Of a stretch of DNA of 64,000 bases, positions 43,401 through 52,400 are shown one piece after another. A model generated the notes under the pieces. It did no database searches. It had not been told where the DNA came from and worked only from the letters and a program-made list of their open reading frames with translations. Origin of the DNA: Aplectana chamaeleonis (taxonomy: Eukaryota > Nematoda > Chromadorea > Rhabditida > Cosmocercidae); the NCBI GenBank assembly GCA_029168955.1, contig JAPDOI010000039.1:124001-188000 (forward strand). Direction: 5' to 3'. The position numbers and the translations under genes are program-made. Numbering within the stretch: position 1 is the first letter of the stretch; every line of letters starts with the position of its first letter.

Positions 43401-46400
43401 GAATCAAAATTCTTGTAAATTACCTAAATGAACTCCATGCATTCGTCGTTAATAACATCAATATCGAGTCTCAGCTCTATTTTTTTCTTGGTCATTTGAA
43501 GTTCGCTGAAGTTTCATCGGAAGTTGTCCCATGCAATCAATCTTCCACCGAAAAAAGGGTGAACGATAGTTTTTTCGTGAACATTTGAACCTCACAACAT
43601 AAAAAAACATTCTCTCAAATGCCGCATTCGGATTGCCGAACACTTACCCGAGTACCGGAGGTCCATTCCTTCTTCTTCTTATCGGCCACAGCGAGCTTTT
43701 TCTCATAGACGCAGGAAGGCGGCAACCTCACACGGCTTTTTCCACATATCCAGAGCTGTCAGAGAAGTTGGTCGAACTGGGCATGAAAATAAATGTAATG
43801 AATCATGCCCTGTGCCGTGGCAATCAGGACATTCGTCGGGGACCGATGGATTCATTACAGTATAGAATTGTGAGGGGCACAGGAGAGGTATTCATTGACG
43901 AATCTGGTGTGCTCCATCTGCAGGAGCCTCTTCCGGTTGAGCTCTGAGGTTGCCCAACGTTGACGGTCATTCACAGAGACAGCGGCATACAACGGTGCAC
44001 GGATGTTACGGGAATGAGGGGGGTCGGATGATAGCAGGGGGTAATTGGGGTGTGTGGCATTCCTGGCTATGCCGATATGGAACTGTTGCATCTGCAATTG
44101 GCAATGCTGCTTTACAGGAAGAAGGGCGCATTCTTGATGTAGGTGGGAATCAGGAGTGGATTTAGGGCATCCAGTGATGACACGTAGAGCAGCGTTTTGT
44201 GTTCGCTGCAGTTTGTTCCAGGACGTTTCCGTCAAGTGCCTTGACCAGACTGGAGCTCCATATTCCAGTACGGGCTGTATCATCGCCTTGTAAGTGACAC
44301 GCAATACTTCCTTTGAGCTACCCCATGTAGTTCCTGCCAGAGCACGGAGTATATTATTACGCGCACTGGCCGTAGCAGCTCGAATATGTGAGTTTTCATG
44401 GAAACGCAATGAAGGGTCCAGGAACACACCGAGTAGACGAGGGTGCTTAGGTAAGGGCAGCAGATTTCCTTCCCAGAAAACCTGGGGATGCAGTTTGTGC
44501 TCAGCCGTTGCAGTGGTGCACAGAGTAACGCTGGACTTCGTAGGAGAGACCTTTAACTGTTTTGATTCCAGGAATTTGGCCAGACTGCTAAGGTATTTGT
44601 TCATCTCCACAGTGGCGTGATCAATAACAGGGTCAGTACACACAATAGTGATGTCATCCGCATACAGACATAAATGGATGTTGGGCGGTGGCTTCGGAAT
44701 ATCAGATAGATACAGAGAGAATAGACTCGGTGACAATACTCCGCCTTGGGGAACGCCTGCCTTCAAGGGAACAGACTTCGACAAGTGCCCATCGAACTTC
44801 ACACGTATAGAGCGATTTTTGACAAAGTTGTCGGTCCATCGTTTACACCATTCCGGCATATCACAGTCCAGTATGCTGCCGAGATGTCGTACGTTCGTGC
44901 CGTGGCAGTGTGGAGGAAAGAAGATCACCTCCGTGCAAACCGACGTCAATCTCTCCGCGGAGAGGGTTTTTGTCATGGGAGAGGTGCTGGCTGGCTGCAG
45001 CTCTCCTGAGGATTCTTCTACAAATGGCCGGCGTCGAAAGGAATCCAGGACCCGCGAAGAAGAAGAAGTACCCATGTGCCACATGCGGCAGAGATGTCAA
45101 TTGGTATGGAACCAGCGTCCAATGTTTTGGATGCGAAAGGTGGGTGCACTTCTCTTGTTCGGGTCTCAGTTCTGTGAGGCACCACGATTCTTCCTTTCGT
45201 TGTATTGTGTGCTCCGCCTCCAGTAACTCAAATTCCTCATCTACCAACCGCCCCCTATCTATTGTACACATCAATCTAAACGGCCTTCGGACCAAGCTTT
45301 CTGAATTATCTCTCTTTGCCCGTACTCATCACCCGGATGTTATCATGGTCCAGGAGACCAAACTCTCTCCCTCTGCTACCTCTAGACATCCAAACATCCC
45401 GGGCTATACTGCATATCATACTCCCAGGTCATCTCAAGGAGGCGGAGTCTCTACTTTTGTTCTGTCCTCTCTTCCCTCTCACATTATTCCAAACACTCCA
45501 GTGGATGGCACTCTCAAATACATCCCCATCCATCTACCTCTTAAAACACCACTTTCTCTTTTTAATATATATATCCCTCCTTCTTCCTCTTGTCCCTCAA
45601 CATACAATCCTATCCCCCTTCTCAAGCAGCTGTATGACTGCTCTCTTTCTCCCTCAATTGTCTTCGCGGGTGACTTCAATGCGCACACGTTCTGCTCGTC
45701 GCTTGATTCTGATGCTAGAGGAGGTGACGTCGAAGAATGGGCGGAGGAGTGCGATCTGGTTATCTTAAACGATGGCCAGCCCACTCGTCTCCCTGCCAAC
45801 GGCCGATCATCTAGCCCAGACATCTCCCTCGTCTCTTCCAATCTCTCTAATGCCTGCTCTTGGTCGACAGCCACAACTCTTTCCAGCGATCACATCCCTG
45901 TCTTTGTCGATATTGATCTCTCTAACTCTCTTGCTCCCTATACAGGTGTTCGTCATCGTTCTTATCTTAATTTAGGCCTTGCAGACTGGAGCCTGTTCAG
46001 GGAGGTTGCGCTCCGCCAAGCGGCTGATTATCCGTGGAATGGCGATGTACACCAGAAGGAGCGCCACCTATCTGATGCTATCTTGAAGGCTATGAAAGCT
46101 GCGATCCCTGAAGGCCGCGTTAAGACCTTCTTTCCCAATGTCACCAGGGAAACACTGCAGAAGATAAGGACAAGGGACGCAAAGAGAGCCGCAAATCATC
46201 TTGACCCAGACATCGCTGCGCTGGATGATGAGATCAGGAACGACCTTGACAGGCACAAGAAGGAAACTTGGGAAAAGTTCACTGAGAAGATGAACTTCAG
46301 AAATGATGCAGCAGCAACGTGGAAGGCCTTGAAAAGGATCTCCGGAAAGTTCACCTCCGCCGACAATTCCACGATTGAGTTTGAAGATGGAGTCTTCAAA

Positions 46401-49400: not shown

Positions 49401-52400
49401 ATTAACAACGTCTAATGGGCAACTTTGCAATACGATATGGACACCAATACACTCAATAACGTTATCAGCGGGGAGCGCAATGAGGTGTGAGGGAATAGAA
49501 GATTTTACAAAAGTAGAGACGCCACCACCATGAGAAGTACGGGGGAGGTGGTAAGACGTGTAACCGGGGAGGCGGGGAGAGAAGAGGATGCGCTAAGTTT
49601 TGTCTCCTGCAAGAGGATGACATCAGGATGAAAGCGTTAAACGTACAGTGTCAGTTCAACAAGTTTGGCACGCAGGCCATTAATGTTAAGTTGAAAAATG
49701 TCCAGAGTATGAAGAGGAACACTAGGGGGAGAATTAGAGCAAGATATACAACTATAAGCATCAGTGTAGTCATTATAGCTAGCTAACCCCGAACATTTGA
49801 GGTGTACCCAGCCAAGGCAACCACCGCACTGAACGCTAGCGTGTTGAGCCGATAATCCACAGTGACAACAGGGATATCGCGGAGTCTTGCTGCGTGGCCC
49901 TGGGTTCCTCTCAATGCCAGCTCGTAGTAGTAGAATACGGAGTGCAGCAGCCAGCCATTCGCACTCCCATACAGAAAAAACTCCTCGTGGAGTTGTTGAT
50001 GCCCGTTTGATGAGTCTCCTTGATCTTGGTAGTCGACTCCACAGATCCACCACGCGTAGGTTGAGCATCTCGGATCCGAGGTCCATTCCAAAAAGAGGTT
50101 TACTTATAAAAGAGGTGTACTTCAAATAGAGGATGTACTTCTAATACTCAGCCGGGATGTTTGGATGTCGAGAGTTAGCAGAGGGAGAGAGGTTGGTTTC
50201 CTGATCCGTTATAACATGCGGTGATGAGTACGGGCCAAGAGAGATAATTCAGAAAGCTTGGCGCGAAGGCCGTTGAGGTTGATGTGTACAATGGAGAGGG
50301 GGCGGTTGGTAGATGAGGAATTGGAGTTACTGGAGGCGGAGATTCTTCTCGACACCGGCTCTTTGTAATAGAATCCTCAGGAGAGCTGCGGTCAGCCAGC
50401 ACCTCTCCCATTACAAAAACCCTTTTCGCCGAAGGATTGACGTCGGTTTGCACGGAGATGGTCTTCTTTCCTCCACATTGCCACGGCACGAGCGTACGAC
50501 ATCTCGGCAGCAATCCGCAGATACCTTGTTTTCTACCGGTCATTACGGAAGCCCGGTCACTGATCCTGCTGGCGAAGGGTGGAAAAGCCCCGTCACTAGA
50601 AAGAGAGGCTAGACGATTCTCAAAGAAAGTCCTAGGGCTAGTCAAGATACTAGATTGCTGTGTCCGGGAATCCAATGGAGTTAAGCGTTACCGTGAGGCA
50701 TGGAATATGCCACGTGCGGACTATCCTTGAATTTCCACTAGAGCCAGATAAACATTTGTTGAACGATTGACAGATGCAGTTCTCAGTTGAGAGAAGGTCT
50801 GTTACATATATTCCGTTCCCTGTGCAATCATCCGTTAAAGGTGAGATCGGGAGGTTTTCGTCGATGACTTACTCTAACAGATCATGTTTTATGTTAGCAG
50901 CGAATGGTTCGATTATACCTGTAGGTGTTCGTCGTAAGGGACTGAGCAGAGTTCAATCAGGACGCGGCGCGACCTTATGGTGGACTGTCGTATAGATAGA
51001 TCGCGGCGATCTATCAATACGGCAGCCTACCGCGCCCTGTAGCGCTCTGCTCAGCTCCTAAGCAAAGGCAGTAGATGTAATTGTGGCTAAGGTAGCTTGC
51101 TCCAAGTTTTCCTTCTCAGGTCCTGGGAAACACGTAAGATTTGGTTGTGCTCTGTAGGGTTGTGTCGTCTCATTGTCTGAAGTATGTCCAGCCTGTTCTG
51201 CATGTTCACAAAATCTGTAGATCGTTTTTCTGACCAAACAGCTCGTCTTTGCCAAAGTGAGTCTTCACCCTTCCTTGACTGACGCCGTGACGGTGGGGCC
51301 TCTGCTGTGTTAGTTCTGTATTCTGCGCCTTTTCCAAATTAAGGGTGAGATTGTAGCTTCCCTCTTCTTCTTCTTCTTCTTCTTCTTCTTCTTCGCAGCC
51401 ACATTGAGGGTTTTGTCATAGGTTGAGAAACTGGGCGACCAGTAACGGATTCGTCCATAAGTCCATTACGGTTAGCGTGGTGGGTCTCTCCGGACATTTG
51501 AAAAGGTGTGCAGTATCATGGCCGAGGCAGTCACAGTCCGGGCAAACATCTGATTTGCTGCTGTCTATTTTGCTGACTTAGGACATAAACATGGTAGAAT
51601 GACCACAGCGCAGTGATGCCAGGGTGCACCTGGCCCTTCTTCCGAGTTCAGCCTCGGATGGGCAGACTTGGGGCGGCACTACCCCCAATATGGGATTAAT
51701 GGCCGCCTTTTCCAGATGGCACCGTACGAACTGAATATGCTCCTCGCGCAATAGACGGAGTCGTTCTTGCTGTGAGTCGTGCCATCTTTGCAGATTGACT
51801 TTGCTGGGAGCATTGGCGAATGGCTTTCTGACGCCTCTCTCTCTGACGGGGATTAGCACTCTCCAAGAGGGGTGATTTGGTTGTTTGACAATGTTGATGA
51901 AAAATTGTTGGGCTTGGAGCTGACAGTGCTCCCTTGCTGGTAATCAGCGGGTCTCAGCATGCAAGTGATCGACTGGGGAACTTCTTGCACATCCGGTGGC
52001 GATTCGAAGAGCTGCATTCTGTATGCGTTGCATCTTAGTCCAAGAGCATTCCGAAACTAGATGCTGCCAAACTGGTGCGGCGTATTCTAGTGCAGACTGG
52101 AGAATAGCCTTATACGTTGTAATAATGGTTTCTTTGCTACTATCCCATGACGTACCGCCCAGGGCTCTAAGCACGTTAAGCTTCGCTTTCACGATTGCCT
52201 GCTTCTGTTCCGTGTTCTTATGGAACTTGAGCGATGGATGGAGCACGAGTCCGAGAAGTTTTGGGAAGCGGGCCGCAGGCAAACACTCTCTATTCCATAC
52301 GACATACGGATGTGCGCTGTGTTCAGATGGGTCCGTTGTGAGTACGGATACCGATGACTTTGACGCAGAAATCTTCAGCATTTTGCGGTCGAAGAATCTT

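Follow-up and report, generated by a model that had tools for sequence, protein, structure and literature searches.

We analyzed the 5' ends of a group of long interspersed nuclear elements (LINEs) in a stretch of 64,000 nucleotides from the nematode Aplectana chamaeleonis (contig JAPDOI010000039.1, positions 124,001 to 188,000, forward strand; in the following "the window"). The proteins of these elements comprise a 2A-like NPGP motif, a weakly matching PHD-type finger, an endonuclease and a reverse transcriptase (RT). In all likelihood each full-length element of the group starts with a self-cleaving ribozyme of 67–96 nt resembling that of hepatitis delta virus (HDV), which would act on the element RNA in the steps outlined below. 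The fold, the core bases, the coding parts, the exact 5' junctions of four copies and the occurrence in four families are read directly from the sequence.

Self-BLAST of the window gave five 5' ends for family A (A1–A5, at 44875+, 21653+, 13193-, 15982- and 50511-), and the 5' end of family D lies at 50077-. A third family, E, whose element encodes IEANPGP, starts at 4952-, where the self-BLAST match of an A fragment ends (4953). The sequences and coordinates of the A and D segments are as given in a previous interpretation made from the letters alone (the sequence-only reading), which had proposed an HDV-type fold for all five A copies and for D and did not include E. The double pseudoknot consisting of P1, P2, P3, a short L3 and P4 is found in A1, A2 and D, with P1, J1/2, P2, L3, P4 and the motif CAAAC present as proposed, and also in E and in L001, a relative from outside the window described below; in A3, A4 and A5 it is damaged. 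All P1, P2 and P3 pairs are intact in A1 and A2 (helix positions in Table 1). The P1 of 7 bp originally assigned holds only as a helix of 6–7 bp, since its seventh pair (G-U) and P3 compete for the same U. P3, formerly described as weak, consists of 3 bp (ACG/CGT in A, ACC/GGT in D) with an L3 of 7 nt. In E the helices are GCTCTT/AAGAGC (P1), GAGGATC/GATCCTC (P2) and GCC/GGC (P3); its P4 (CGGAAG/CTTCCG) lies 5 nt past P1' and was found by eye, and the E fold was first located with a loosened descriptor that matches 616 sites in the window. The putative catalytic C ahead of P2' is the first base of CAAAC in A and D, of CAAA in E and of CAAAT in L001.

For the search itself we used a descriptor consisting of P1 of 6–7 bp starting with G, J1/2 of 0–3 nt, P2 of 5–8 bp, P3 of 3 bp, L3 of 5–9 nt, P4 of at least 4 bp and C-N-A directly 5' of P2'; as C-N-A is demanded, the C-plus-A feature of J4/2 is not independent evidence. 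The ranges were fixed after the sequence-only reading was known. The permitted start of P4 was then widened once, from at most 3 to at most 6 nt past P1', after E had been seen; the original limit missed this family, and the background was recounted after widening. The original descriptor matched five sites when both strands of the 64-kb window were scanned, and three of these sites coincide exactly with the element starts at 21653, 44875 and 50077. In 600 shuffled windows the mean was 1.47 sites, or 0.125 sites with P2 of at least 7 bp, and the observed number of three such long-P2 sites was reached in one of the 600. The widened descriptor gave seven sites in the window. Four have P2 of at least 7 bp, all of them LINE 5' boundaries (three of the four also matched the narrower original descriptor), compared with an average of 0.17 in shuffled windows, none out of 400 of which reached four. 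The remaining sites (14770+, 59057+ and 34078-) do not carry the core bases and were rejected as chance matches. When dinucleotide shuffles of the individual 5' segments were scanned, a match at base 1 occurred 18 (A1), 11 (D), 2 (E) and 13 (L001) times per 100,000; demanding the core bases as well lowered these counts to 1, 0, 0 and 0.

The core bases comprise a U at position 1 of L3, a G at position 6 and a C at position 3 that pairs with the base following P1', none of which the descriptor requires. All three are present at four of four LINE sites (A1, A2, D and E) and at none of the three other window sites, and 1000 shuffled windows contained 11 sites with them (0.011 per window). This rule was picked after comparing A, D and E and is therefore not independent for these families; only L001 is out of sample. 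The spacing of five bases between U and G and the C3-G pair of P1.1 are common to A1, A2, D, E and L001, and a second P1.1 pair, A-U, is present in D, E and L001. An L3 U-G pair is described in PMC3774820, its spacing in PMC3386971 and the pairing of P1.1 in PMC4908430.

L001 (JADGDE010000022.1) is a contig of 4310 bases filed under a Thiotrichales metagenome-assembled genome (MAG) and encodes a LINE whose long open frame (1365 codons from contig base 1 up to the first stop) has Pfam matches to endonuclease and RT. It was reached by a protein search for RT relatives (884 matches, of which the best 120 were listed), followed by an alignment and a scan of genomic contigs, in which among the best 80 of 294 matches only L001 covers nearly the whole query; an earlier genomic contig scan had returned no relatives. 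The contig was picked through its endonuclease-RT stretch, which is 34% identical. The unchanged descriptor matched L001 only once, with a predicted ribozyme of 67 nt whose first base is base 88 of the contig, the point at which a (GGGAGA)-type repeat gives way to the element. The helices read GGTCCA/TGGACT (P1), GAGTACA/TGTACTC (P2) and GCC/GGT (P3) with TACACGT as L3, GT follows P1', and P4 is present. The 99 fetched loci (1,050,172 bases) contain 65 descriptor sites, among which the core bases occur solely at the one in L001. Proteins with identities of up to 99% fall into clusters of up to 764 members; as near-identical proteins fill such large clusters, L001 appears to be a high-copy eukaryotic family in a contaminated MAG. 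MAGs of Mesoflavibacter (P0078) and Immundisolibacter (P0179) are likewise the stated sources of related proteins. Viral contig scans yielded no relatives apart from 19 partial RT matches in one scan. With the L001 protein, tblastn against phage records gave one partial match, and against plasmids 198 records, none covering 80% of the query; nine of the best 10 of these 198 are annotated as group II intron RT. Three further proteins (P0223, P0225 and P0249) contain the peptide S-L-(H/L)-(V/A)-V upstream of 2A, which L001 encodes across P3-L3-P3'; given this likeness, other families may carry the same ribozyme.

The helices of the four families differ in sequence while pairing is retained, which the sequence-only reading had noted for A and D and which extends to E and L001. 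Across the hand-entered helices of A, D, E and L001, both sides differ at five of six positions in P1, five of seven in P2 and two of three in P3 (12 of 16 pairs). An alignment of A1, A2, D, E and L001 has 53 of 55 cells paired (96.4%), with a covariation score of 0.764 versus 0.270 when shuffled. For P1, P3 and P1.1 together, both-side changes were found at 7 of 11 pairs, a number reached by one of 500 shuffles; this alignment-based count leaves out P2 and P4, as the aligner misplaced the 3' part. Since the descriptor admitted members by their pairing, the covariation is supporting but not independent evidence. The weight is carried by the position at base 1 and by the core bases.

Exact target-site duplications of 12 nt adjoin base 1 at four of the seven ends tested (A1–A5, D and E), namely at A1, A3, A4 and D, in agreement with the previous claim that duplications touch the first base of P1. 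Here suffixes of the 5' flank were matched downstream, looking no more than 2 bases from the proposed end. A search starting from the 3' tails, with 14 rows of output, recovered these four ends again, to the base. It also returned two insertions that begin elsewhere (tails at 29869 and 42934), which we take as 5'-shortened; the other 8 of the 14 rows are taken as internal-repeat or chance matches. The four duplicated target sites differ in sequence from one another. Judging from both duplications, A1 (44875-47939) appears to interrupt D (span 50077-43670).

Several points weigh against a ribozyme at these ends. The evidence base consists of one 5' end outside the window (L001) and seven within it, of which A1, A2, D and E match the descriptor. 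The sensitivity of the descriptor is uncalibrated against known ribozymes, and the pairing and covariation of D, E and L001 are partly selected by it. No target-site duplication was found for A2, A5 and E by the flank-suffix search, and none was seen by eye at L001. The second P1.1 position is an unpaired U-U in A1 and A2. Three of the five A copies carry lesions (loss of 3 nt in P2 of A3, a P2 mismatch in A4, C-A in P1 of A5), and C replaces U at the first position of L3 in A4 and A5; lesions in these three copies are as expected from the decay of old copies. The energy of ordinary nested folding does not stand out (z +0.52 in A1 and -0.33 in D), a measure that is uninformative here because plain minimum-energy folding cannot represent the pseudoknot. 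Finally, the match to HDV models that the sequence-only reading had proposed to look for did not appear: Rfam gave no HDV family match at any threshold tried, curated or relaxed. Rfam models omit pseudoknots, and a match in this library is not what defines membership among HDV-like ribozymes.

The 2A-like sequences read GVERNPGP in A1, GIERNPGP in D and IEANPGP in E. NPGP is encoded by A1–A4, D, E and L001 but not by A5; in A, D and E a G occupies the position of D in the published motif D(V/I)ExNPGP, and we call these sequences 2A-like by their letters. The PHD-type match stays below the Pfam cut-off of 24 bits in all four families (A 19.9, E 19.8, D 19.0 and L001 18.6 bits; E-value for D 0.0015). 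A 3' tail of the (GAA)n type is present in A1 at 47924. RNase H was not found: Pfam returned only RVT_1 and two endonuclease families for the L001 protein of 1312 residues, and the 3' open reading frame (ORF) of A1 gave no match up to E 10. Vingi is the name of an RNase H-less sister clade.

In families A and D the first AUG sits within P2. In D this AUG is directly in frame with the 2A-like sequence. In all five A copies the heptamer GGGTTTT follows 80 nt past the P2 AUG (77 in A3; 44884-44970 in A1) in a phase that fits a -1 slip. The 2A frame is -1 relative to the AUG frame in two of the five copies (A1 and A3), where the AUG frame soon stops; A2 and A4 have other AUG-to-2A offsets, and A5 lacks the 2A. 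The hairpin downstream of the A1 heptamer is only mildly stable (z -1.16 and -1.70). A -1 frameshift in family A is thus a possible reading, and a lead only. Between positions 88 and 273 of L001, upstream of the 2A, the main frame has no AUG; the only two ATGs there are in other frames.

Very probably the 5' segments are HDV-like ribozymes and as such another instance of a known retrotransposon strategy. HDV-like ribozymes are listed for R2, R4, R6, RTE, SART, Baggins and L1Tc in PMC11620745, and PMC4035085 places them throughout the L1Tc/ingi clade. Among the matches listed in the open-access literature (Vingi, ingi, Jockey, CR1, L2, PHD, SART, RTE), none reports a 5' HDV-like ribozyme for the present LINE group. 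The arrangement resembles L1TcRz/Pr77 of the trypanosomatid L1Tc and ingi elements, with a ribozyme in about the first 77 nt and a cut directly 5' of base 1; in L1Tc, ribozyme and 2A sequence are reported from one element (PMC4748587). L1Tc also encodes an apurinic/apyrimidinic endonuclease and RT, corresponding to the endonuclease and RT found here. In contrast, L1Tc has an RNase H, which Pfam did not list for the L001 protein or the A1 3' ORF, and in the present elements the 2A is followed by a weak match of PHD type. R2, according to PMC3774820, shares the double pseudoknot at or near the 5' junction and a conserved L3 G pairing with the L3 U; in silkmoth R2 a change of the J4/2 C to U abolished cleavage, and P1 of the fruit fly shows compensating differences. 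The target of R2 is 28S ribosomal DNA and its cut may fall in upstream host sequence, whereas here base 1 is the element end. R4, R6, RTE, SART and Baggins are likewise described in PMC11620745 as autonomous elements without long terminal repeats that carry a ribozyme in the 5' untranslated region; they are other element groups and are likened by description only.

In the proposed mechanism an upstream promoter would drive a longer RNA that includes the element, and the ribozyme would fold while emerging from transcription. The C directly 5' of AAA before P2' would help to cut the bond preceding base 1 of P1, and the element RNA would then start exactly at G1. Translation of this RNA would proceed via the 2A-like peptide, zinc finger, endonuclease and RT, and target-primed reverse transcription from the nicked target would reach G1, so that full-length insertions would join the target without extra bases. 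Cleavage, co-transcription and the translation of uncapped RNA are what we infer for these elements.

A real HDV fold that does not cleave, and instead serves element protein binding or translation initiation, seems very unlikely. The first AUG within P2 of A and D would suit such a role, and PMC4908430 mentions that HDV-like ribozymes may play a part in starting the translation of retrotransposon mRNAs; yet the bases linked to cleavage (L3 U, L3 G and J4/2 C) are retained in each of A1, A2, D, E and L001, and four element ends lie exactly at the predicted cut. We regard as highly improbable an internal promoter similar to Pr77 in its DNA role, with transcription starting at G1 and the fold being incidental or a second function. 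Exact initiation could likewise yield exact 5' ends, and in L1Tc, as reported in PMC4748587, Pr77 is promoter and ribozyme together, a mutation in the promoter element harming the ribozyme via the P3 loop. However, a DNA promoter needs neither CAAA before P2' nor P1 and P2 helices of 6–7 bp whose sequences are exchanged for other pairing ones in A, D, E and L001, and such a promoter and a ribozyme could exist side by side. Chance pairing at a conserved 5' end, to which the silence of Rfam and the off-target descriptor sites (3 in the window, 64 in other loci) might point, is hardly credible given base-1 rates that in none of four families with different helices exceed 18 in 100,000, or 1 in 100,000 with core bases, and is contradicted by L001, the out-of-sample family, which gave its single match at the element start. 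The ribozyme interpretation of the sequence-only reading is supported by four families with a common predicted topology at base 1 and HDV-type core bases, and its extension to all five A copies stands for A1 and A2 only.

Table 1. Positions of ribozymes, duplications and coding regions of the LINEs in the window.
Feature	Position	Strand	Remarks
A1 target-site duplication, 12 nt	44863-44874 / 47940-47951	+	adjoins base 1
A1 ribozyme, intact, 73 nt	44875..44947	+	P1 44875-44880/44904-44909; J1/2 44881-44882; P2 44883-44889/44941-44947; P3 44891-44893/44901-44903; L3 44894-44900; P4 about 44912-44916/44928-44932; putative catalytic C 44936
A1 coding region, split into separate ORFs	44910..47901	+	2A-like, weak PHD-type, endonuclease, RT remains
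A2 ribozyme, intact	21653..21725	+	duplication not found
A3 5' end with ribozyme, P2 short by 3 nt	13124..13193	-	duplication 13194-13205 / 9723-9734
A4 5' end, ribozyme with a single mismatch in P2 and L3 starting with C	15910..15982	-	duplication 15983-15994 / 9037-9048
A5 5' end, ribozyme with a single mismatch in P1 and L3 starting with C	50439..50511	-	duplication not found
D target-site duplication, 12 nt	50078-50089 / 43658-43669	-	adjoins base 1
D ribozyme, 80 nt	49998..50077	-	P1 50077-50072/50048-50043; P2 50069-50063/50004-49998; P3 50061-50059/50051-50049; L3 50058-50052; putative catalytic C 50009
D N-terminal coding	49637..50068	-	AUG in P2, 2A-like, weak PHD-type match
E ribozyme, 96 nt	4857..4952	-	duplication not found; P1 4952-4947/4921-4916; J1/2 4946-4944; P2 4943-4937/4863-4857; P3 4936-4934/4924-4922; L3 4933-4925; putative catalytic C 4867

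Elsewhere in the window, repeats of about 84 bases (spacing from self-BLAST) form a long tandem array at 59737-62116, which overlaps a minus-strand open frame of 740 codons. A long imperfect hairpin at 62108-62227 gave weak matches to microRNA precursors, far under the curated scores. The ORF at 33651-34250 (minus strand) resembles a transposase of the Tc1/mariner type.

A more far-reaching reading, which we consider rather unlikely at present, is that the ribozyme and the N-terminal 2A form an ancestral cassette, vertically kept as a hallmark of a large LINE lineage from trypanosomes to animals, and that the start codon of family A lies within the ribozyme while a -1 frameshift at the in-phase GGGUUUU links to the 2A frame. 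If true, the family A ribozyme would set both the RNA end and the translation start. The ribozymes proposed here would extend the HDV-like type to a LINE group bearing 2A-like sequences, with many relatives in public data, and would account for the exact 5' ends of these LINEs even under transcription from outside. The comparison of four families with common core bases (L3 U, C and G; CAAA before P2') provides a basis for a better search model, and the pairing of 2A and ribozyme, known from L1Tc, makes a deep common origin of both features testable.

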